From contig JAMCZT010000036.1 in assembly GCA_023485445.1 (NCBI GenBank), positions 1 to 36,136 of the forward strand: 36,136 nt of DNA, read 5' to 3'. The position numbers and the translations under genes were made by a program. The first letter of the stretch is position 1; the number at the start of each line of letters is the position of its first letter. Below the pieces are notes generated by a model, which saw nothing but the letters and a program-made list of their open reading frames with translations, did no database searches and had not been told where the DNA came from. This document shows, one piece after another, positions 7,622 to 35,586 of the stretch. The stretch is from Patescibacteria group bacterium. GTDB taxonomy: Bacteria; Patescibacteriota; Microgenomatia; Woykebacterales; 2-01-FULL-43-14.

Positions 7622-8017
7622 TTAAGTGCTTTTCTTGTACTTTTGTCTCACGGTTTCAGTCTGAATCCAACGACCATATATATATGGTTGTTCGTTGCTT
7701 TGAACCTTCTTGTGTTTCTCAAGACTACACAACCAAGCAGATTCAGTCAAGAATTCTAAACCGAATTTATCGTTGCCGAAGTACTGAATCCTGATGGCAT
7801 CCACCGTTTCTTCAATTAGCTTTGCGTCTCGACGAATCCGCGCTAAGGATAGTGTCCCAGAGTAGACGTAGACATCTTCAGGGGCGATCCACGCCTCTTG
7901 GCCGGTTTCCATGGTGCAAACAAACTTCCTAAACTCCTTCCCGCGCAGGCGTTGCCAAAGAACAAAAAGACCAATAATCACCAGCACTACCAGGATAACC
8001 CAAGATTCTCCTTTCAT
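7622..8017 (-). CDS. hypothetical protein with N-terminal TM helix
   Basis: ORF with N-terminal hydrophobic segment, SD aaaaggggaggatacc. Confidence 0.55.
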   Translation of the reverse strand: MKGESWVILVVLVIIGLFVLWQRLRGKEFRKFVCTMETGQEAWIAPEDVYVYSGTLSLARIRRDAKLIEETVDAIRIQYFGNDKFGLEFLTESAWLCSLEKHKKVQSNEQPYIYGRWIQTETVRQKYKKST

Positions 8018-8142
8018 GGTATCCTCCCCTTTTTTGTGTAGTTTTCTTAACTGCAGTATTTAACATAATTAGAGTAAAGAGTCAAGCTCGCGCTTGAATT
8101 ATTGAATAAGAAGTAGTAAAAAATAGATAAGGAGATAACCCG

Positions 8143-8715
8143 ATGGGAAAATTAGTCTTGGGGTTAGTCGGAAAATTTGGCGCGGGGAAAAGCTTGGTGG
8201 CCATGCATCTTGAAAAAAGGGGATTTTTAAAAATTACCCTCTCTGATTTCTTAAGAGAAAAAGCTAAAGCCAGAGGTCAAGAACCAAACCGAGACGTTTT
8301 GCAAAATTTGGGAAACGAACTCCGCGAAAAGTTTGGCATCGGCGTGCTTTCCCAACTAGCGTGGGAAAGAATCTACCAATCAAAGGTTAGCTTAGCCGTA
8401 ATAGACGGGATCCGCAATCCAGGCGAGGTCGAGTTTTTTAGAATGAAAGATAATTTTTATCTACTCAAAATCGAGGCTGATGAGGAAATTCGTTTCCAAA
8501 GGCTTCTCCAGAATTCTGATCCTCGTTATCCAAAAACTTGGGAAGAATTCGCGATGACCGAAAAACGAGATTTGGGTGAGGGGGAAAAAGAATCTGGCCA
8601 ACAGGTTGGAGAAGTCTTGAAAATGGCTGATTCTACGATTTTTAATGAAGAAACGGAAGAAAAACTTTACCAAAAGGTCGATGATCTCATAGTAAGATTA
8701 ACAGCGTCGTCCTAG
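8143..8715 (+). CDS. AAA/P-loop nucleotide kinase-like protein (dephospho-CoA kinase-like fold)
   Basis: LGLVGKFGAGKSLVAMHLEKRGF Walker A; VIDGIRNPGEVEFFR. Confidence 0.65.
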   Translation: MGKLVLGLVGKFGAGKSLVAMHLEKRGFLKITLSDFLREKAKARGQEPNRDVLQNLGNELREKFGIGVLSQLAWERIYQSKVSLAVIDGIRNPGEVEFFRMKDNFYLLKIEADEEIRFQRLLQNSDPRYPKTWEEFAMTEKRDLGEGEKESGQQVGEVLKMADSTIFNEETEEKLYQKVDDLIVRLTASS

Positions 8716-8807
8716 AGGGATTGACAAGATGCTGCTAGGATGGTACAGTTTCATTAGAATATTGCTCCCGAATTAAGAATACATGCTCTTAGAAAGGGGG
8801 TGAAAAA

Positions 8808-9488
8808 ATGACAGATTTCTACTCATCAGTTAATCAAGCAGTTGTTAGCTCGTTAAACCAAACGGCTGCTTTCCTACCAAACCTTTTGGCCGCAATTGTC
8901 ATCTTTGTCATTGGGGTAATCGTCTCCGTAATCGTTAAGAATATCCTAGTTAAAATCCTCCAAGCAATTAGTTTTGAAGCATTCCTGGCGAAAACCGGAG
9001 TTCCTCAAACCTTAAAGAAGACCGACCCTAACCTTACGGCCACCAAGCTTCTAGGTGAAATTATTAAATGGTTTGTCATTCTAGTATTCCTGGTTCCAGC
9101 TGTAGAAGCGTTAGGCTTGACAGAAGTAACAAAATTGATCGATTCGTTACTTCTTTACTTACCAAACGTAGTTGTTGCTGTGATTATTATTATGGTCGGG
9201 GCGGTTTTTGCGCAGTTCACAAAGGATTTTGTCTTGGCAGCGGCGACAGGTTTAGGTTCTACCGTTGCGCGGGCGTTAGGGCAAGTTGCACGTTGGTCGA
9301 TACTAGTTTTTGCTTTCTTAGTTGCCCTTAACCAGCTCGGCATCGCACCGCGATTAATCGAAATACTCTTTACCGGTTTTGTCGCGATGCTCGCCTTAGC
9401 GGGAGGCTTAGCCTTTGGCTTAGGTGGTAAAGAAACAGCGGAAGATATCTTAAAAGCGGTCCGAGATGAAATTGCAGGAAAAAAGTAA
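8808..9488 (+). CDS. MscS-related conserved TM-helix repeat protein
   Basis: Repeated hydrophobic pattern; LPNLLAAIVIFVIGVIVSVIVKNILVKIL and GLAFGLGGKETAEDILK. Confidence 0.75.
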   Translation: MTDFYSSVNQAVVSSLNQTAAFLPNLLAAIVIFVIGVIVSVIVKNILVKILQAISFEAFLAKTGVPQTLKKTDPNLTATKLLGEIIKWFVILVFLVPAVEALGLTEVTKLIDSLLLYLPNVVVAVIIIMVGAVFAQFTKDFVLAAATGLGSTVARALGQVARWSILVFAFLVALNQLGIAPRLIEILFTGFVAMLALAGGLAFGLGGKETAEDILKAVRDEIAGKK

Positions 9489-20857: not shown

Positions 20858-21106
20858 CTGGCTAAATTTCTTGGGGTTACGGGAAGCATGTTATTATTGA
20901 CCACGGTGATAATGTCACTTCGATTTACGCCCATTTGAGTGAAATTGAAGTGGTTAAAGGGCAAGAAGTCGAAATAGGAGAAGTGATTGGCAAAGAAGGA
21001 GAAACTGGCTGGGCCACCGGCCCTCATGTCCATTTGCAAATTAACGTTTGGGGTATACCCGTTAACCCAAGAATATTTTTAGGAAGCGATCAGCCAAGTC
21101 TGGAGT
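20858..21106 (+). pseudogene. 3' fragment of M23 (LytM) peptidase gene, copy 1
   Basis: AG*ISWGYGKHVIIDHGDNVTSIYAHLSEIEVVKGQEVEIGEVIGKEGETGWATGPHVHLQINVWGIPVNPRIFLG. Confidence 0.88.
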
Positions 21107-21117
21107 AACTCACTTCC

Positions 21118-22221
21118 TTAACTTTCTCTTAAAATTTTGAACAATTGAGGGCTGAAGTAAAGAAAACGGTTCTTGTGAAGCGTTTTTCGAAGGATGTTAT
21201 TTTGCTCTAAAGTTTGAAGGTACTTTCTCGCCGTGACATAGCTTAAGCTCATGTTTTTCTGAAATTCAGCAATACTAAAAAATGGATTGGTGAAGATGTA
21301 TTCAACTAATTCTGCTGAGTAAACCTGAGGAATTTCCTCGCGTAACTTTTTGCGGGTACTTGCAATAACATGATTAACTTCTCTTAAAGCATGGGTTGTA
21401 TATTCAGCTTGAACAGCGGTTGCTTTGGTCATAAAAAGTATCCACTTTTTCCAGTCATTTTCTTTGGTTACGGCCCGTAAGCGCTGATTGTATTCGTCTC
21501 TGTGCTCAAGAATGTACTTACTCAAAAAGATAACTGGAAGAGTAAGTCTTCTTTGTTTTAATAGATATAGTGGCATTAACATTCTTCCGGTACGTCCATT
21601 ACCATCATAAAATGGATGAATTGCTTCGAATTGATAGTGAAGAATAGCCATCCTAGCATAGACCTCATGGGTTGGTGATTCCTCATTAAAGTACTCTTCA
21701 AAGTTTTTCAGAAGGGTTCGGATTTTTTCCTCTCCTTCTGGGGGAGTGTAATATATTTCCTTGGTGTGAGGATTACTTATTGTTGTCCCTGGTAGTTTTC
21801 TAATTCCGGCCCGGCTCGAAACCAACGTCTGTTGTAATTCTACATATTGATTTGTTGCTAAAAAGCCTTTCTTCAAAATAAAATCCATTCCTTGTACTAA
21901 AGCTTTTTGATAGTTCATTGCTTCTTTTTCGGCCCCGCTAATTTCTTTTTTATCTGTAACCGCAAGCGCCTTCAAAACGAGTTCGTTTGTTGTTGCTACG
22001 TCTTCAACTTGACTACTGGCGACAGCTTCTGGAATAAAGAAGGGAGAGAACATATGCGAAGTAATAATAACTGCAACCTCACTGTCAGTTAAAGTATTTA
22101 AAGCTGCAATAGCTTCAGAAGCCTCAAGAGAGGCGATCAGTATATCCTGGTCTTTAAAGTTTACTGTTGGAGGTAGGATTGGTAATTGATTGTATGGTTT
22201 TTTTGGGTCAAAGTTGCTCAT
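21118..22221 (-). CDS. Fic-family protein with C-terminal winged-helix-like region
   Basis: HPFYDGNGRTGRML Fic motif. Confidence 0.95.
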   Translation of the reverse strand: MSNFDPKKPYNQLPILPPTVNFKDQDILIASLEASEAIAALNTLTDSEVAVIITSHMFSPFFIPEAVASSQVEDVATTNELVLKALAVTDKKEISGAEKEAMNYQKALVQGMDFILKKGFLATNQYVELQQTLVSSRAGIRKLPGTTISNPHTKEIYYTPPEGEEKIRTLLKNFEEYFNEESPTHEVYARMAILHYQFEAIHPFYDGNGRTGRMLMPLYLLKQRRLTLPVIFLSKYILEHRDEYNQRLRAVTKENDWKKWILFMTKATAVQAEYTTHALREVNHVIASTRKKLREEIPQVYSAELVEYIFTNPFFSIAEFQKNMSLSYVTARKYLQTLEQNNILRKTLHKNRFLYFSPQLFKILRES

Positions 22222-22370: not shown

Positions 22371-22649
22371 ATGGAAACAATTATTACTTCCATTTATGGG
22401 CATTTAAGCGAAATTGATGTTACTGAAGTACAGGAGGTTGATATCGGCCGACTCATCGGCAAAGAAGGCGAAACCGGCTGGGCCACCGGCCCTCACGTCC
22501 ATTTGCAAATTAACGTTTGGGGTATACCCGTTAACCCAAGAATATTTTTAGGGGATGGAGATCCTGAAGATATTGTTATAACGCAGTCTTTTTCACAACC
22601 CGCTGGATTTATAAACGATGATCTGGTATATTTCGGGCATAAGACATGA
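22371..22649 (+). pseudogene. 3' fragment of M23 (LytM) peptidase gene, copy 2
   Basis: ITSIYGHLSEIDVTEVQEVDIGRLIGKEGETGWATGPHVHLQINVWGIPVNPRIFLG; lacks N-terminal half. Confidence 0.85.
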
Positions 22650-26599: not shown

Positions 26600-26714
26600 T
26601 GATTAGATTATAACGTAATAAGTAATGTGAGTGATAATTTATTTTTTTAGTTATAAATCCATTATTTTTATAAGTTATATGTCAAACAGTAGATTGATAG
26701 CAATATTATAGTCA

Positions 26715-26743
26715 TTGACAATCTAGTTAATTTATGCTATAAG
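26715..26743 (+). promoter_or_regulatory. sigma70-like promoter upstream of the candidate guide-system gene
   Basis: TTGACA (26715) - 17 nt - TATAAG (26738). Confidence 0.75.
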
Positions 26744-26783
26744 ATATAAACTGGCAAAAAAATTGGCTTAAATAAAAGCTTAT

Positions 26784-27464
26784 TTGCTGGTGCTCAAAAA
26801 AAGAAAGGGGAAAGAAAAATTGAGCGAAACTAATGCTGTCATGTCGCGTGAAGGCTGGAGCAGGTTTAGGGTCTATTGCGAGGGCGAAAGTCCCGTAATG
26901 TTCACTAAGCCGACAGAGGAAATTTTAGAAGCCTTACGGAAAGGCGTTTCGCAACCGAAGGTTAAGGACCGCCCCGCAAAAGAAGAAGCAGCCGAAAAGC
27001 TACATCGCGAAAACGGTGCTACAGGTAGGATAGGCATTCCTAGACGAATGCTTTTTGCCTGTTTGGCATCGGCTGGGCGTCACGTGACTTACTCGGGGAG
27101 AAAGAAAATGTCGACAGCGGATTCAACATTGCTGCCGGCGTTTTTAAGAATCCAAGAACGGTTTATCCCGTTTGGACTGAGAGACGAGCCTGGTTTGGAC
27201 TTCGATAACGCTTGGGAAGTTGACATCCAGAAAGGCCAACACGAGAGTGCCGGCCGAAGGATAATGATTGTTTTGGTTCGGCCGAGGTTCGATCGCTGGG
27301 GATTCGAGGCGACTGTCTCCGTAAAGGACTCCGAGGTGGACGACAAATCCGTTCGACAGCTGTTTGAGGTTGCAGGATCGATGTACGGCATTGGTGCCTT
27401 TGGTCCTCGCAACAGCGGCGATTTCGGAATGTTCAATGTGGTAGACTGGAAAAAGCTAAGCTAA
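26784..27464 (+). CDS. uncharacterised protein; possible RAMP/Cas7-like RNA-binding protein
   Basis: RPRFDRWGFEATVSV...VRQLFEVAGSMYGIGAFGPRNSGDFGMFNV Gly-rich C-terminus; adjacent to pentamer array and helicase. CDS confidence high, fold assignment tentative; start may be the TTG at 26820. Confidence 0.5.
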   Translation: MLVLKKRKGKEKLSETNAVMSREGWSRFRVYCEGESPVMFTKPTEEILEALRKGVSQPKVKDRPAKEEAAEKLHRENGATGRIGIPRRMLFACLASAGRHVTYSGRKKMSTADSTLLPAFLRIQERFIPFGLRDEPGLDFDNAWEVDIQKGQHESAGRRIMIVLVRPRFDRWGFEATVSVKDSEVDDKSVRQLFEVAGSMYGIGAFGPRNSGDFGMFNVVDWKKLS

Positions 27465-27480
27465 CACAATCCATCGCGAC

Positions 27481-27842
27481 CCGATGAAGTAAGGTAAAGT
27501 TATCTGCGGTTGCGTGAAGTGCCGTTTGGTTTCGTTGCCGTAGGAGGAGTTAGTCCGGAAGGTTATCTCCTCCCCCATTCCTGATATTGTCCTGTTCGGT
27601 CCGATACGGTATTGTTGGGTTCGGTAAGCTAAAGTTTGGTAAGGTCACGTTCGGTCGGGTTTTGTTGACCAAAGGGGAAGTTATTCCGGAAGGTTAGCTT
27701 CCCCACCAATACCAAATATTGTCTTGTCGGGTTCAGTCGCGTAGGGTTAGCTACTGTGATGTTCTGTCTGGTACGGTCATTTTTTGTGGTGTACTGGTTT
27801 GGCGAGAGTTTCTTTCGAAAGATTGACCTCTCGCCTCTTTTT
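27481..27842 (+). repeat. Array A: three NNNGT pentamer tracts (11, 16 and 15 units) separated by hairpins, ending in a terminator
   Basis: Tracts 27481-27535, 27586-27665, 27718-27792; hairpins ggaggag/ctcctcc (27543-27573), ggggaag/cttcccc (27674-27704), ggcgagag/ctctcgcc (27801-27835)+T-run. Confidence 0.93.
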
Positions 27843-27888
27843 ATGCAGATTTTGTTTTAGGGTTTGATTGTGTTAAAATCCTGAAACA

Positions 27889-27912
27889 AGTTCGGCAGAA
27901 AGCAGAACTTAA
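27889..27912 (+). promoter_or_regulatory. leader hairpin before the helicase gene
   Basis: aagttc-ggcagaaagca-gaactt. Confidence 0.45.
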
Positions 27913-27932
27913 ATTTTGAAAGGGAGAGGAAA

Positions 27933-29777
27933 TTGAATCAACTGCACCATCAGAACCATCAAGGCGAGCAAAGCCCTGAACTTCTGGCGCATTTTCCTTG
28001 GGAACAGTATCCAAACATTCATCCCAATCAAATGCAAGGCCTTGAAGTCATCGCTCGCCATCAGGATGAAGGGCAACCGATCATCCTGGAACTTCCGACC
28101 GGCAGCGGAAAGACAGCTATTGGTTACACTGTGCTAAAACGAGCCGCTGACTTAGGAAAGAAACCGCTCTTTTACATTGTCCCAACGAAAACTTTGGTTG
28201 ATCAGGTGAAGTCGCTTCACCCAGAAGTCACTGTTGTCTATGGACGCAACGAGTACCTGTGCTCCTATTTCCCGGATAAGGAATTCACCGCGGAGGAAAT
28301 TCCTTGCATGATGCTCTCCGATTGCCCTCACCGGGTGGACCAGGAAACGGGCCAGACGAAAGTTCCGGGGGAAACACCTTGTCCGTATCTATGGGCAAAG
28401 TACCAGGCGAAACATGCCGAAATCGTCGTTTGCACTATGGCTTTTTACCTTTACACCCAGCTTTACACTCGAGAATGGGATGAACCAGCGGTGCTGATAA
28501 TCGATGAGGCTCATCGGATCGCTCAGGTAGTACGTAACGCTCTAAGCTTCGAAATCACCGATGCACACATCCGAACGGCCATCAAGCTGCTTCAAGGTGT
28601 GGATCTGGACGAGGCTTTAGGCTTGCAAAAGTTCTTGGATACCATGATCAAAATTGCCCGAAGCAAACCTTCTAAACGCCCGACTCTTTTGGAAGACGAA
28701 GAAATCCAGGAGCTGATGTCAACCCTTCTCCAAATTGATCTAAGAAGTCTAAAGTACAAAATTGGCGAGGCGGTTGAACGAGGATTAATCGACACAAACG
28801 AAAACATGGAAACTCTTCGGCGTTTGGAGAAAGGCGTTTACGAACTCGGTCGATACTTGAAGGCCTTCGAATACTCTCTTTCGACTGATCGACGGCAAGC
28901 CCTAAACTACACCTACGGATTCTATAATGAAGAACTCGACGAAGGAAAGAGAGTTCAACACAAACTGGTTATCAAAGCCTACTACGTTGGGCCGCTCATC
29001 AGAAAACTTTTGCCTTCTAGTGGATTAACCGTAGCCTACTCAGCGACGATCAGTAACGCGGAGATTTTCGGGTTTGAAACGGGAATCAAAGGAAAGTTCT
29101 ACAGCTTTCCTTCCGATTTTCCAGTGGCAAATGCCCGAATTCTGATCCCGAAGGACACGCCTGATCTATCAGTGAAAAATCGAGGTAAGGGAGAACCGGA
29201 AGGATCGCTTCGCCAAATGGCGACCTCGTGTAAACAACTGGCTGAAAAAGGTATCAGAAGTTTGGTGGTGGTTGTTTCTGATGCTGAACGCGCGATGTTC
29301 TTGAACCTGTGTGCTAAGAAGGGGATAAGAGCAATTAGTTATGGAAACGGCGTTCCACCCAAAAAGGCGGCGATGAAGTTCAAAGACGGGGAAGGAGATG
29401 TTCTGGTTGGAACGGTAGCAAATTATGGCGAAGGAATCGATCTTCCCCGAAGCCTAGCGCCGGTGATCTTTTTCCTTCGGCCGTCCTACCCCTCGCCTTA
29501 CGATCCGGGGACGCTTTTTGAAGAAAAACGTTTCCGAAATCAGCGCTGGTCAGTCTGGTTGTGGCGGGCCATGATGGATGCCCTTCAAGTTAGAGGCCGA
29601 AACATTCGAAGTGCCGAAGACGTTGGAGTCACTATTTTTGTCTCTCAACAGTTTCGACGATTCGTCTTTGCGTCGTTGCCGAAGTGGTTGGAAGAGGCTT
29701 ATCGTTCAGATCTGACCCTCAAAGAATGCATTTCAGAGGCGGTAAGAGTAATCCAAGGGAAAGAGGTGGTTTCGTAG
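27933..29777 (+). CDS. XPD/DinG-family SF2 DNA helicase
   Basis: LELPTGSGKTAIGYTVLKRA (motif I), VLIIDEAHR (DEAH), Cys-rich candidate Fe-S region between them, VGTVANYGEGIDLPRSLAPVIFFLRPSYPSP. Confidence 0.9.
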   Translation: MNQLHHQNHQGEQSPELLAHFPWEQYPNIHPNQMQGLEVIARHQDEGQPIILELPTGSGKTAIGYTVLKRAADLGKKPLFYIVPTKTLVDQVKSLHPEVTVVYGRNEYLCSYFPDKEFTAEEIPCMMLSDCPHRVDQETGQTKVPGETPCPYLWAKYQAKHAEIVVCTMAFYLYTQLYTREWDEPAVLIIDEAHRIAQVVRNALSFEITDAHIRTAIKLLQGVDLDEALGLQKFLDTMIKIARSKPSKRPTLLEDEEIQELMSTLLQIDLRSLKYKIGEAVERGLIDTNENMETLRRLEKGVYELGRYLKAFEYSLSTDRRQALNYTYGFYNEELDEGKRVQHKLVIKAYYVGPLIRKLLPSSGLTVAYSATISNAEIFGFETGIKGKFYSFPSDFPVANARILIPKDTPDLSVKNRGKGEPEGSLRQMATSCKQLAEKGIRSLVVVVSDAERAMFLNLCAKKGIRAISYGNGVPPKKAAMKFKDGEGDVLVGTVANYGEGIDLPRSLAPVIFFLRPSYPSPYDPGTLFEEKRFRNQRWSVWLWRAMMDALQVRGRNIRSAEDVGVTIFVSQQFRRFVFASLPKWLEEAYRSDLTLKECISEAVRVIQGKEVVS

Positions 29778-29795
29778 GAAAAGAAAGCTTTTATG

Positions 29796-30125
29796 CTGTG
29801 TTGTCTTGTGCAGCTCTGTTAAGTCAGGTCTCGTCTTGTCCTGTTTTGACGAAACCTTGGGAGGAGTTTCTTGGAAAAGACTCTCCTCCTCCACTTAAAT
29901 CTTGCTTAATATTGTCTAGTACAGTTGGGTCTAGTAGAGTCTCGTCTCGTTTCGTGCTGTTATGGAAAGAAGGAGTTGAAATATCCATCCTCCTTCTACG
30001 TTTCTGTCCAAATATTGTTTCGTAATGTTCCGTGTGGTTAGGTGAAGTTTCGTGCAGTAAAGTTCGGTGTCGTCCTGCCTTTGGCGGAAATTCTTTCAAT
30101 AGATTGAGTTTCCGCTATTTTTTTG
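29796..30125 (+). repeat. Array B: three NNNGT pentamer tracts (10, 10 and 12 units) separated by hairpins, ending in a terminator
   Basis: Tracts 29796-29845, 29912-29961, 30015-30074; hairpins at 29861-29890, 29969-29998, 30084-30116 + T-run. Confidence 0.93.
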
Positions 30126-30168
30126 TTTATAAATACCCAGACGAACAGTCTCTGTAATTATAAGGGTA

Positions 30169-30200
30169 TTGACAGGCTATGATTGAATATGCTAGATTAG
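30169..30200 (+). promoter_or_regulatory. probable promoter of the T4SS-like operon
   Basis: TTGACA at 30169 with tatgctagat -10 region. Confidence 0.55.
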
Positions 30201-30211
30201 GTCTTAAGATG

Positions 30212-30238
30212 AAGGCTGCCTATATGGCAGCTATTTTT
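30212..30238 (+). terminator. attenuator-like hairpin at the start of the T4SS leader
   Basis: ggctgcc-tata-tggcagc-tattttt within tens of nt of the predicted TSS. Confidence 0.6.
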
Positions 30239-30409
30239 GTGGTCTTTTTTGAAGTCACAAGGCGGAATCTAATGAGAGTTAAGTTACCAATTCTCATATC
30301 CCGCCTGCCCGCCAAAGCTTTAGCCTCTCTAAAGCGGGATATTTCTCCCTCAATTTTCAACTTAATCTTTAATCATGATTTAATCTTTTTCTTGAAAGGA
30401 GGTGAAATC

Positions 30410-30733
30410 ATGAAAAAAGCCATTGTTATTAACGGACTTATTTTGACGGCCTTAATCTTTGCGTCTCCCGTTTTTGCTGATGATCCGGATGTTTCCAAAA
30501 TCCAAAGCTTTATCCAAAGTATTATCCAAGTTTTGGTTACTTTAGCCGGCTTAGTCTCAGCCGGTTTTTTTGTATGGGGAGGTTTTGGCTACGTCACCAG
30601 TTCCGGCAACCCTGAATCCTTGGAGCGATCAAAGCGCACGATTCTTTATTCTGGATTGGGACTAGCGATCATTCTGGGGGCGTTTGTCTTAAGCAACATT
30701 GTGACGCAGCTAGCAACTTCTGCCTTCAAGTAA
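30410..30733 (+). CDS. T4SS pilin-like protein (VirB2/TrbC-like)
   Basis: AAAGGAGGTGAAATC-ATG; signal peptide then two TM helices; GGFGYVTSSGNPESLERSKRTILYSGLGL. Confidence 0.8.
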   Translation: MKKAIVINGLILTALIFASPVFADDPDVSKIQSFIQSIIQVLVTLAGLVSAGFFVWGGFGYVTSSGNPESLERSKRTILYSGLGLAIILGAFVLSNIVTQLATSAFK

Positions 30734-30747
30734 AAAGGTAGGGCAAT

Positions 30748-32013
30748 ATGAAAATTATTTTTAGCCTGATTTGTTTCTTTGGGCTAATGGTCATATTTTC
30801 CTGCCCGGCAAATGCGGCTTCGGGGGATATCAAAAGTTACGCAACCGAGACGCTAAGCCTTATCGTTCTTATTTCTTCTTTAGCCTCCGTTCTATTTCTT
30901 ATCCGCGGCGGTTACCTTTACGTTACTTCGGCCGGCAATCCAGAAGCGATCGCCTCTGCCAAGAAAACCATTCGCAACGCTCTTTTAGGTTTGGCGTTGG
31001 TGTTAGCGGCGACCGTTATTCAATCGATCTTTAGCAACGCTCTAAATACTTCTTCTACCGCTACCCCAACCAATCAATTTTCGTTATCCCCCATTCAGCC
31101 GGCTGACACAACAGGTGGACTAACGAAAGTTTTAATCGACGCAATTGCCGGTTTCTTGCAAAACATTATTGAAAGCGCCACTAAACCGTTAGTCGACGGA
31201 GTAATTGGCTTTCTAACCACTACTCCGAGCGTTGCTTCCAATTCGGTTATCTTTAACTTCTGGTTAGTGACTTTAGGCATCGCCGATTCTTTATTTGTTC
31301 TGGTGCTGGCCTTGCTTGGCTTGCAATTAATGAGCGCCGATACTTTTGGTTTTCAAGAACTGGAGTTTAAACAAATTCTTCCGCGTGTTGGGCTAGCCTT
31401 CCTGGGAGCCAATATTTCTATCTTTTTAATCGACCGGATCATTTCTTTGAATAACGCTTTGATTAAAACAGTACTGGATGCAACCGGCGGGATAGAAAAA
31501 GCCTGGGTGTTAAATGCTTTTGATCCAACTTCCTTAGCTTCCGGGGCAACCTCTTTGATAACTTTGGTCTTTATGATTCTTTTTGTCATTCTGGTCATCG
31601 TCTTAATGTTGTTTTATATCAGTCGAATGATTTTGATTGCTTTAGGAGCGGCCTTATCGCCGCTTCTTTTTTTAATCTGGGCCATTCCTAAAACGGCTGA
31701 TCTTGCGGAAATTGCCGTTCGTGGTTACTTAGTCACTATTTTTAGCATCTTTATCCACGTGGTCATTATTCAACTCGCGTCAGCCTTTTTAACCATTCCC
31801 GGCCAGTCGGGAACTAATTCCGTGATTTCCATATTAGTTAGCATTGGTTTGTTCTTTACCTTATTGAAAACTCCGTCTTTGATGATGCAAATGGTTTTCT
31901 ATACTTCAAAGAATGGGGCAGTGAAAAAGATCGGCGGGCAAATCTTAAACGTGATTGGCGGAGGAAGCCAAGCAGGAAGTAAAGAAGCAGTTGTCAGGGA
32001 GGCGAAAGGATAA
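30748..32013 (+). CDS. VirB6/TrbL-like membrane protein with N-terminal pilin-like domain
   Basis: N-terminus GGYLYVTSAGNPEAIASAKKTIRNALLGLALVL resembles the upstream pilin; C-terminal multi-TM TrbL-like region. Confidence 0.75.
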   Translation: MKIIFSLICFFGLMVIFSCPANAASGDIKSYATETLSLIVLISSLASVLFLIRGGYLYVTSAGNPEAIASAKKTIRNALLGLALVLAATVIQSIFSNALNTSSTATPTNQFSLSPIQPADTTGGLTKVLIDAIAGFLQNIIESATKPLVDGVIGFLTTTPSVASNSVIFNFWLVTLGIADSLFVLVLALLGLQLMSADTFGFQELEFKQILPRVGLAFLGANISIFLIDRIISLNNALIKTVLDATGGIEKAWVLNAFDPTSLASGATSLITLVFMILFVILVIVLMLFYISRMILIALGAALSPLLFLIWAIPKTADLAEIAVRGYLVTIFSIFIHVVIIQLASAFLTIPGQSGTNSVISILVSIGLFFTLLKTPSLMMQMVFYTSKNGAVKKIGGQILNVIGGGSQAGSKEAVVREAKG

Positions 32014-32016
32014 CTT

Positions 32017-32535
32017 ATGAAAACAACGATCATTCCAGCCCAAATTACTACCGTTGAAGATAAAATTGCCGGGAATTTAAATTCCACTCAACTGATGCTT
32101 CTTATGATCTTTCTTTTTTCTTCGGCGATTATTTATCTAGTTCTTCCGCCTCGCTCGGGTGTGGTTCTTTACAAGATTATTCTAAGCGGTTTCTTTTTCT
32201 TAGTTTGCGTTACCTTAGCTATTAGAATCAAAGGAAAGATTGTTCTAGAGTGGTTGAAAGTAACAGGGGTCTATAACTTGCGGCCAAAATACTATCTCTT
32301 TAACAAAAACGATCTTTATTTAAGAGAGGTAGAAAATCAGTCGGTGGATTTAAAAATTGCATCATCTAAAAATCAGGCTGAAGAGATAAAAGATTTTGAG
32401 GCAAAAGAAACGGTAATTGATCAAGGTAATTTAATGGCGATTGAAAAGTTAATTTCGGGAAGAAAGTATAAACTGGCGTTTATTCCTAGTACCAAAGGAG
32501 GTTTAAATGTGGTTGTTAACCAAATCAAAAGATAA
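32017..32535 (+). CDS. PrgI-like/VirB3-like T4SS protein
   Basis: Position before VirB4; N-terminal two-TM layout (IPAQITTVEDKIAGNLNSTQ). Confidence 0.65.
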   Translation: MKTTIIPAQITTVEDKIAGNLNSTQLMLLMIFLFSSAIIYLVLPPRSGVVLYKIILSGFFFLVCVTLAIRIKGKIVLEWLKVTGVYNLRPKYYLFNKNDLYLREVENQSVDLKIASSKNQAEEIKDFEAKETVIDQGNLMAIEKLISGRKYKLAFIPSTKGGLNVVVNQIKR

Positions 32536-33127
32536 AGTTAGTTCTCGAGGCCAGATTAGAATCAAAGAAGTTAAAGACGGGATTTTAATCTTGCCGGATA
32601 ACAGATACCGAATCGCGATTGAAACTTCCTCGGTTAATTTTGAATTGAAAAGCGATTCCGAACAGGACGTTTTAATAGAGAGCTTTCAAAGTTTCTTAAA
32701 CTCGCTCCCCTGCCCGATCCAAGTCTTGATTCGGGTACGGGAAGTAGATATTGAGAGGTATTTGGAACAGATGTCGAAAGCCGAAGATTCCGAAACAGAA
32801 AAGGTGTATAAAGCTCAAGTTAAGAATTACTGCGCTTTTATTAAGAATTTAGTCTCCGGCAGCAAAATTTTATCGCGAAGGTTCTATTTAATTGTTTCTT
32901 ACGATCACTTTGAAAAGCAAAATGATTTTGAACTCATTAAAGAACAACTCCGTCTTCGCCAGGACTTAATCGTGAAAGGTTTAGAAAACTTAGGCATGAA
33001 AGCTAAAGTGCTAGACAGCCTGGAAATCTTGGAGCTTTTCTACAGTTTCTACAACCCGAATCGTTCAAAAATTCAAGAACTCAAAAGCCAAGCATACGTT
33101 AGTTTGATGGAATCAGTTGGAGGTTAA
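32507..33127 (+). CDS. VirB4/TraC N-terminal domain-like protein
   Basis: Overlaps flanking T4SS genes; FQSFLNSLPCPIQVLIRVREVDIERYLEQM. Confidence 0.7.
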   Translation: MWLLTKSKDKVSSRGQIRIKEVKDGILILPDNRYRIAIETSSVNFELKSDSEQDVLIESFQSFLNSLPCPIQVLIRVREVDIERYLEQMSKAEDSETEKVYKAQVKNYCAFIKNLVSGSKILSRRFYLIVSYDHFEKQNDFELIKEQLRLRQDLIVKGLENLGMKAKVLDSLEILELFYSFYNPNRSKIQELKSQAYVSLMESVGG

Positions 33128-34877
33128 GATGTTTTTAATTAAGCACGGTAAGAAAAGATCCGAGCAAAAATTAGCTCAGTTCTATTTCGGGCAACAAGAC
33201 AGCGTTGATTTAATTTCCTATTCTGGTTTGGAAGAGTTTCCGACTTACCTTAGGTTAGAAGATAAATTTATCCGCACCATATTTATTTCTGGTTATCCTT
33301 ACGTGGCAACAACGGGTTGGTTAAACATGTTTATTAACTTTAATCACAACATTGATATTTCCTACCACATTGAAACAATTGATCCATTTCTGGCTCTGCC
33401 AAAACTAAATCGCAAAATTACAGAATTGGAATCAACCAGACGGGCAATGCAGCGCTCCGGTAAAATAGTTGGTTCCGAATTAACTGATCCCTTGGAGTCA
33501 GCAATTGATTTGAAGAACAAAATCCAGCGGGGCCAAGAAAAGCTTTTCCAGATTTCCATTTACGCCACTATTACCGCCGATACATTATCGGATTTAAACA
33601 AAATTACGGCCAGTTTAGAAGCAGTTCTTTCCACTAAGCTATTTTATTCTAAAACCGCCACCTTGCAGCAACTAGAAGCTTTGCAGTCAGTTTTGCCTCG
33701 TGGAGAGAACATTTTAAATCAAAAAAGAAATTTAGATAGCTCTTCCGCTGCATTGACTTTTCCTTTCGTTTCTTCCGAATTGGTTCAGGAGTCAGGCATA
33801 CTTTATGGAATCAATAAATCAAATAACTCGTTAGTTATTTTAGATCGATTTTCTTTAACCAACGCTAACAGCATTCTTTTTGCTCAATCGGGAGCCGGGA
33901 AAAGCTATACCGCCAAGGTTGAAATACTTCGGCAACTGATGCAGAGCACCAAAGTGATCGTGATCGATCCGGAAAGAGAATATCAGCAACTCTCCGAATC
34001 AGTATCGGGAACTTACATTAAAGTTTCCGCCAAGTCTAAAGAAAAGATTAATCCTTTTGATTTAACTTTGAACTCGCACGGGCAGGAAAGCTTATCGGAT
34101 CATATTCAGGATTTAACGGAAATTATTTCTTTGATGTTAGAAGCTGGTACCGCCAAAGAAAAGGCCGTGATCGATAAGGCGATCTTTCAAATCTACAAAC
34201 GTTTAGGCTGGAGCCAAGGAAGAAAATCGACCAAAATAAGGGAGTATCCCCTTCTTAAGGATTTCTATAAAACTTTAAGAGAAATGAAACAAAAAGATCT
34301 TTGCTTACGCTTGGAAAAGTATATTAAAGGTTCATTATCTTCCGTCTTTGATTCCCAAACTAACATTAAGCTTGATAACCGCTTAATTATCTTTGACATT
34401 AAAGATTTAAGCGAAAGTTTAAGGCCGGTGATGATGTTGGTGATTGCTAATTTTGTTCATAGCCAAGTGAAAGCCAAGCCTCAAAAAAGAATACTAGTGA
34501 TTGATGAGGGGTGGCTTTTATTGCAGCATCAAGAAAGCGCTCGGTTCATTTCGGGGTTAGTCAGACGGGCTAGAAAGTATTACTTAGGGGTAACGATTAT
34601 TTCCCAGCAGGCCAGCGATTTCTTAAACAATGAATACGGCAAAGCCATTGCTTCCCAATCATCATTGAGAATTTTAATGAAGCAAGACACCACGACTATT
34701 CGAAAAGTGGCGGAAGAATTTAACTTAAGCGAATATGAACAAAAGTTTTTATTAACTTGTAATCGAGGCGAAGCGTTAATTATCGCCGATCAAAACCACG
34801 TGGCCTTAAAGGTGGTGGCTTCGGAAAAAGAGCACCCATTAATCACGACTGACCCGGGAGAAGTTTATTCGAGTTAA
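33126..34877 (+). CDS. virB4: VirB4-family T4SS ATPase
   Basis: LFAQSGAGKSYTAKVEILRQ Walker A; ILVIDEGWLLLQHQESARFISGLVRRARKYYLGVTIISQQ. Confidence 0.93.
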   Translation, partial: KMFLIKHGKKRSEQKLAQFYFGQQDSVDLISYSGLEEFPTYLRLEDKFIRTIFISGYPYVATTGWLNMFINFNHNIDISYHIETIDPFLALPKLNRKITELESTRRAMQRSGKIVGSELTDPLESAIDLKNKIQRGQEKLFQISIYATITADTLSDLNKITASLEAVLSTKLFYSKTATLQQLEALQSVLPRGENILNQKRNLDSSSAALTFPFVSSELVQESGILYGINKSNNSLVILDRFSLTNANSILFAQSGAGKSYTAKVEILRQLMQSTKVIVIDPEREYQQLSESVSGTYIKVSAKSKEKINPFDLTLNSHGQESLSDHIQDLTEIISLMLEAGTAKEKAVIDKAIFQIYKRLGWSQGRKSTKIREYPLLKDFYKTLREMKQKDLCLRLEKYIKGSLSSVFDSQTNIKLDNRLIIFDIKDLSESLRPVMMLVIANFVHSQVKAKPQKRILVIDEGWLLLQHQESARFISGLVRRARKYYLGVTIISQQASDFLNNEYGKAIASQSSLRILMKQDTTTIRKVAEEFNLSEYEQKFLLTCNRGEALIIADQNHVALKVVASEKEHPLITTDPGEVYSS

Positions 34878-34878
34878 T

Positions 34879-35586
34879 ATGGAAGCAATTTTATTAAAAA
34901 ATGCTTTTTTAATTTTTTCTTATCGAAACGAGCTGAAGTATTTGCTTTTTACGTTTGTGGTCATTTTAGCCTTGCCAATTATCGCCGTGATTGTTTTGAC
35001 TCAATCGGGAATTAGCCTAGTCTCGGATGCGCTAGCCCATTACAATCCGCAGACAAAATCAATCGAGCTTTTCTATCCGGATGGGACGAAGTATAATACA
35101 ATCCAAGCGACGACCGTTTGGCCGGTGAAAGGAGTGGTCACTTTAGAGTTTGGCGACTCAGATCTTCCCTATCAAGTTTTTCATTCCGGAATTGATATCG
35201 CCAATCCGGATGGGAAAATTGGCGATGACGTAGTCGCGATTATGCCGGGGAAAGTAATTTACGCTGGCGAAATTTCCTGGGGATTTGGCAAGCACGTTAT
35301 TATCGATCATGGAAACAATATTACCTCAATTTATGGCCATTTAAGCGAAATTGACGTGACTGAAGGACAGGAGGTTGCTATTGGAGAGATAATCGGCAAA
35401 GAAGGTGAAACTGGTTGGGCAACCGGTCCTCATGTCCATCTACAAATTGATGTTTGGGGAATACCAGTTAATCCGAGAACATTTTTAGGAGAGGAGGACC
35501 CTCCAGGAAAAATAAAACTATTAAGTATAATTACTTATCAACTAACTTTATCTCAGCAAACCCAGAATAAATTCCTTGACTTATAA
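34879..35586 (+). CDS. M23 (LytM) peptidase with N-terminal TM helix, full-length copy
   Basis: VTLEFGDSDLPYQVFHSGIDIANPDG..HVIIDHGNNITSIYGHLSEI..GWATGPHVHLQIDVWG. Confidence 0.9.
   Translation: MEAILLKNAFLIFSYRNELKYLLFTFVVILALPIIAVIVLTQSGISLVSDALAHYNPQTKSIELFYPDGTKYNTIQATTVWPVKGVVTLEFGDSDLPYQVFHSGIDIANPDGKIGDDVVAIMPGKVIYAGEISWGFGKHVIIDHGNNITSIYGHLSEIDVTEGQEVAIGEIIGKEGETGWATGPHVHLQIDVWGIPVNPRTFLGEEDPPGKIKLLSIITYQLTLSQQTQNKFLDL

Follow-up and report, generated by a model that had tools for sequence, protein, structure and literature searches.

The stretch of DNA analysed here (the window) comprises 36,136 nucleotides, positions 1 to 36,136 of contig JAMCZT010000036.1 from the assembly GCA_023485445.1 of a Patescibacteria group bacterium. 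It contains, in this order and on the plus strand, a gene for a small protein of the Vipr family (vipr), an array of pentamer tracts (array A, 27482-27843), a helicase gene and a second array of the same kind (array B, 29795-30125). The features are given below by coordinates, strand and description, followed by the evidence used.

26715..26743, +, probable promoter TTGACA-17 nt-TATAAG; read in the sequence, the same motif preceding the paralog on contig C17 of the same genome
26820..27464, +, vipr, RAMP protein (Cas7-like), predicted RNA-binding, 214 aa; phrog_4652, BLASTP, AF2 and PDB fold matches
27482..27536, +, guide A1, 11 NNNGT units; sequence, lag-5 test
27543..27573, +, A1 tail hairpin GGAGGAG...CTCCTCC; fold z -2.6, compensatory changes among five such tails
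27586..27665, +, guide A2, 16 NNNGT units; sequence, lag-5 test
27674..27704, +, A2 tail hairpin; fold z -3.6, compensatory changes among five such tails
27718..27792, +, guide A3, 15 NNNGT units; sequence, lag-5 test
27801..27843, +, terminal tail hairpin GGCGAGAG...CTCTCGCC with T-run, probable terminator of array A; fold z -3.3
27933..29777, +, XPD/DinG-type helicase, candidate vipr-accessory protein; PADLOC, Pfam and PHROG matches, motifs
29795..29844, +, guide B1, 10 NNNGT units, homolog of D3 on C17; sequence
29859..29890, +, B1 tail hairpin; fold z -2.4
29911..29960, +, guide B2, 10 NNNGT units; sequence
29968..29997, +, B2 tail hairpin; fold z -2.0
30014..30073, +, guide B3, 12 NNNGT units, homolog of D4 on C17; sequence
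30082..30125, +, terminal tail hairpin with T-run, probable terminator of array B; fold z -5.1

The promoter motif was missed by an automatic scan because the scan demands a T at position 6. The length of 226 aa given to the first protein in an earlier note (start TTG 26784) was revised to the more likely 214 aa, with the start at TTG 26820 as in the paralog; a ribosome-binding site lies just 5' of this codon. Directly after array B (30179-35586) follows a cluster of genes resembling a type IV secretion system (T4SS), which encodes two proteins with a T4SS pilin domain, one TraC-like protein, an ATPase of the TraG type and an M23 peptidase. Part of an M23 peptidase gene is present three times (20913-21096, 22382-22565 and 35319-35502; 79-82% identical), and these partial copies flank the region with the cassette and the T4SS-like genes. 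A Fic-domain protein (SoFic-like) is encoded a few kb upstream of the cassette at 21118-22221.

The tracts of array A were re-read in positions 27482-27792 and agreed letter for letter with the earlier note, which had described three tracts of 11, 16 and 15 units in unbroken phase, with exceptions that mostly keep the terminal T. The tracts were placed at 27482-27536, 27586-27665 and 27718-27792. GT ends 36 of the 42 units, the other six being NNNAT, NNNCT or NNNTT. The periodicity at lag 5 was evaluated in 27481-27842 against 2,000 dinucleotide-preserving shuffles of the same positions, and 28 GT-GT pairs were counted versus 5.4 +/- 2.1 in the shuffles (maximum 14), with further peaks at lags 10, 15, 20, 25 and 30. 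When the whole 899-kb genome was searched for GT(NNNGT)x6 with at most one mismatch, four arrays only were retrieved, two of them in the window (A, B) and two on contig C17 (C, D; locus L033), and none in the reversed control. The six guides of the window thus counted have 10-16 units each, in which GT is fixed and three positions are variable. The earlier note had listed neither the hairpin of 31-35 nt behind every tract, nor the twin array at 29795-30073, nor the second cassette on C17. Its placement of array A in the 3' untranslated region of the protein gene holds in part: the tracts lie directly 3' of the open reading frame and end in a hairpin and a T-run, and co-transcription with the reading frame and termination near 27836 are therefore plausible from the sequence. 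The adjoining gene is, however, that of a Vipr, each tract with its hairpin would be a separate guide RNA, and the unit also takes in the helicase gene and array B.

Each of the six tracts in the window is followed by a structured 3' tail, a hairpin. The internal tails have the form GGAGGAG...CTCCTCC with a GGAA-type loop, and in the five internal tails of equal length pairing was found at 45/45 cells, and in three pairs both partners are substituted, a pairing that was lost in a control in which the partners were slid. One common sequence forms the terminal tail in arrays A, C and D, array B has a diverged version of it, and a T-rich run stands behind all four array ends. The Rfam scan of 26600-30400 returned no known RNA, including the hammerhead ribozymes of hammerhead-interspersed VIPR arrays.

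VIPR, described only recently, is related to CRISPR, but the letters that specify its target are spread along the RNA instead of forming one continuous stretch; according to the preprint (PMC13142463; bioRxiv 2026.04.26.720920) it is composed of Vipr, vrRNA and vap. As described there, Vipr is an ancestral RAMP protein, and the vrRNA consists of 9-16 YNNGG pentamers and a 3' tail, with one target base skipped; the unit consensus is given as GGY/NN or "a related consensus", and of the seven types III-V are the enzyme-bearing ones.

The window protein was assigned to phrog_4652 (1.2e-9), the same family to which the Vipr of phage SUSP1 was assigned (1.4e-96), and BLASTP aligned the two proteins directly with an E-value of 5e-6. 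A profile of 41 Viprs, from which SUSP1 had been left out, retrieved the PDB entry 36pp, "SUSP1 Vipr protein", at 3e-28. Structure prediction with AF2 from two sequences only gave a pLDDT of 31 and was redone with the same alignment of 41 sequences, which gave a pLDDT of 85. Foldseek searches of the PDB with this model returned Cas7-like subunits of type VII and type III (Csm/Cmr) CRISPR systems (E-value approximately 3e-6, probability 1.0) at moderate whole-chain TM-scores of approximately 0.4-0.5. The glycines of the C-terminal G-loop (G198, G202 and G215) are invariant, and the modelled protein has a predicted RRM-like RAMP fold with G-loop. The 214-226 aa protein had no match in Pfam, NCBIfam or PADLOC, tblastn of the window Vipr in phages had no match, and the peptide-pattern search of IMG/VR retrieved no close relative of the window Vipr or of the helicase.

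The best defence profile for the helicase (614 aa) was typeIV_DinG of PADLOC (9e-49), and it also matched Pfam Helicase_C_2 and DEAD as well as phrog_2488 (1.4e-41). Its motifs are intact (Walker A LPTGSGKT, DEAH), with four cysteines in the FeS position. This DinG/XPD-type helicase is, judged by its sequence, the likely accessory protein of the window VIPR. When 384 genomes of the phylum were searched by profile, Viprs were identified in 11, and among the neighbourhoods fetched a homologous helicase adjoins the Vipr in seven other genomes of the phylum; since both genes are adjacent there, the pair was considered a conserved unit. The intergenic regions of four such loci (L275-L278) have the same layout of tracts and hairpins, most of them without strict NNNGT; a five-column model nevertheless performed better than shuffles throughout (z 3.0 to 11.8 versus 16.7 for the window). 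Clear GT units are present at the Vipr-helicase locus of another genome of the phylum (L282). Most of these sister loci show a weak five-nucleotide base bias and possibly carry degenerate or different guide codes. A tRNA-Asp gene lies within the vrRNA-like array of L275 (10332-10408), between Vipr and helicase, and two different Vipr genes are adjacent in L276 (8675-10010).

The second full cassette (Vipr, array, helicase, array) was located on C17 (6820-10112, minus strand) and has two guides in array C and four in array D. Upstream of it lies an integrase-like fragment, and a LexA gene (Pfam LexA_DNA_bind, Peptidase_S24) follows the cassette. The paralogs of the two cassettes are 77% (Vipr) and 84% (helicase) identical, with dN/dS values of 0.07 and 0.04, respectively, at saturated dS, which denotes purifying selection on both; the cassettes are old duplicates. 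Third codon positions differ between them at about half of the sites. Even so, B1 can be recognised as the same guide as D3, and B3 as the same guide as D4; the other guides are unmatched. Over the 22 units of these two pairs the variable positions differ 2 (N1), 5 (N2) and 8 (N3) times, and when the overlapping guide pair of viral contig L252 was added the counts became 2, 7 and 11 of 32 (Fisher p 0.03 for N3 versus N1 plus N2 over 32 units). The trend at the third base is suggestive only, because B1/D3 alone has no such trend and the three guide pairs were picked by eye. The changes fit a code in which N1 and N2 are the read bases and N3 is unread or a wobble position, and by analogy with SUSP1, together with the pattern of constrained positions, the two leading variable bases of each unit may specify the target.

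When IMG/VR was scanned with nothing but the repeat pattern, at least 120 contigs were retrieved; many of them carry a Vipr gene, and among the loci searched there were 56 Vipr matches. The units of the viral arrays are GGT/NN, CGT/NN or strict NNNGT, or have a fixed first position (C, T or G), so that NNNGT is one of several dialects. The window does not have the strict GGY consensus; NNNGT is a relaxed form that also occurs beside viral Viprs, and it is not claimed here as new, because PMC13142463 allows "a related consensus". The 76-kb viral contig L252 carries 92 NNNGT units at 7853-8970; they form four arrays that surround its Vipr, with 32 units in the longest, and a guide common to two of these arrays in overlap differs mainly at the third variable base. 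Another dialect is found in viral contig L179 (3395-4990, minus-strand coordinates), with ten CGT/NN tracts and gcagagcagagca repeated between them. L034 and L036, brief runs of NNNGT elsewhere in the class, were rejected as they have no array around them, and the true CCTGT microsatellites in L035 (G060) and L037 (G087), also genomes of the class, are unrelated to VIPR.

Very probably, the tracts encode the guides (vrRNAs) of a VIPR system; the contig that carries them is chromosome-like and belongs to a small genome of Patescibacteria type. Membership in VIPR is secure when sequence, fold, anatomy of the arrays and gene context are taken together. This analysis itself showed the homology and fold of the Vipr, how the arrays are built, the pairing of the hairpins, and the gene order with its conservation. 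Transcription, processing, RNA binding, reading rule and helicase recruitment, we infer, would run as follows. Several units of tract plus hairpin would be made on one transcript and most likely then be separated into single vrRNAs; Vipr subunits would form a row on each tract, every pentamer holding one of them by its fixed GU, and the hairpin tail would cap the 3' end of the vrRNA. The variable bases of successive units would jointly pair with a gapped DNA target, the first two of each unit being read, one target base being skipped and the third variable base being free or weakly read. The DinG-like helicase would be recruited and would unwind the DNA once it is bound, or clear it, like CasDinG in type IV-A CRISPR. 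That the guides target DNA is suggested by analogy with the SUSP1 experiments described in PMC13142463.

One alternative is that the VIPR belongs to a mobile element (an integrated virus or a conjugative element) and acts against competitors of that element instead of serving the host. Most published VIPRs are viral or proviral (PMC13142463), T4SS-like genes follow the cassette, and an integrase-like fragment flanks the C17 copy; no phage structural genes were recognised in the window, though, housekeeping genes were assigned by sequence on the contig (SAM synthetase, PEP synthase-like, adenylosuccinate lyase), and several genomes of the phylum have a Vipr paired with a helicase. We regard ownership by a mobile element as a real but rather doubtful possibility.

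Within a VIPR locus the variable bases could also be read as contiguous triplets, giving a target period of 3 with GU bulged out, which appears unlikely. The order of change N3 > N2 > N1 in B3/D4 and the two overlapping guides of L252 also fits codon positions 3 > 1 > 2 of a coding target read in antisense, and the antisense frame is stop-free in both B3 and D4 (TDFANSYTELK and TEITNSYTEFK with N3 as third base). The same pattern is, however, produced by an unread N3 alone, and N3 differs at 8/22 units of the shared guides, nearer to the saturated synonymous sites (approximately 0.5) than N1 and N2.

Sites of the protein TRAP consist of 11 (G/U)AG-NN repeats, and the spacing of 5 nt and the number of units in the window resemble them. 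The GU pentamers could accordingly be a platform for a ring-shaped RNA-binding protein, working as an attenuator or protein sponge with no target pairing, for which the hairpins and the terminator-like end would also be suitable. This is very improbable, since the neighbouring protein is a RAMP with no TRAP fold, the variable bases differ among tracts and in two shared guides are better conserved than synonymous sites, and the same repeat pattern stands beside Vipr genes in many viral contigs. A functionless, degenerating pentanucleotide microsatellite, for which only the true CCTGT microsatellites of G060 and G087 speak, is already refuted by the conservation pattern, as the units are nearly all different yet keep GT in phase across four separate arrays, a base-paired hairpin closes each tract and both cassettes are under purifying selection.

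Targets of the putative guides were searched for at several scales. The whole of the own genome, scanned with 0-3 skipped bases and the NN or NNN reading, gave no target above shuffled guides, and all VIPR guides compared with approximately 1.3 Mb of fetched viral loci and the own genome gave no consistent signal. Exact gapped scans of IMG/VR with B3/D4, A3, C1 and the shared L252 guide gave few matches, whose extension was no better than chance, and 384 genomes of the class, with 2 mismatches allowed, gave one match versus one in the control. The single match of B3/D4 in the GTDB scan (85,000 species), in Thioglobus with 20/24 bases, was taken as chance. The absence of a target match neither supports nor refutes guide function, because the viruses of such bacteria are probably poorly sampled and the targets may be missing from the databases.

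VIPR is a discovery only months old and a proposed ancestor of CRISPR, and the present locus shows a VIPR with a helicase in Patescibacteria; the genome has two diverged copies of it, and the code is looser than published. The locus can serve as a natural experiment to learn which bases of the guides are read. If the two guides have indeed been kept despite saturated synonymous sites, this would mean a long-term fixed target, and therefore the regulation of genes or a conserved element and not an immunity that changes fast. Tentatively, and with some doubt, we suggest a phylum-wide Patescibacteria branch of VIPR in which Vipr is paired with a DinG helicase and the guide code is relaxed and still evolving; in such a branch the code may be read as triplets, or by a Vipr that needs few fixed bases.

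Among known systems, TIGR-Tas (PMC12045711), of phages and parasitic bacteria, likewise has guide-RNA arrays next to a small protein, but Tas proteins carry a Nop-like guide-binding domain; membership was rejected, as the window protein has a predicted RAMP fold and its guide a pentamer code. The re-examined phage SUSP1 (VIPR type II) has GGTNN pentamer arrays flanking vipr where the preprint states, and resembles the window in that a Vipr-family RAMP gene is flanked by long non-coding pentamer arrays. The window further agrees with published VIPRs in the number of units per tract (10-16 versus 9-16), the structured tail after each tract and the single accessory gene, and with types III-V in that this gene is a predicted nuclease or helicase. 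It differs from published VIPRs in its unit, where only GT is fixed and three bases vary as against GGY/NN, in the DinG-like helicase as candidate accessory protein, in simple hairpin tails of internal and terminal kinds, and in its position on a cellular contig of a genome with two cassettes. Membership in CRISPR-Cas type IV-A was likewise rejected, as there are no identical CRISPR repeats, the neighbouring open reading frames include no other csf genes, and the Vipr lacked a match in the profile databases named above. Type IV-A (CasDinG, Csf2/Cas7) shares with the window the combination of a RAMP protein and a DinG-family helicase, whereas here the RAMP is single and small and the guide is coded in pentamers; the locus also bears on the question whether the type IV pair of RAMP and DinG has its ancestral form in Vipr plus DinG.
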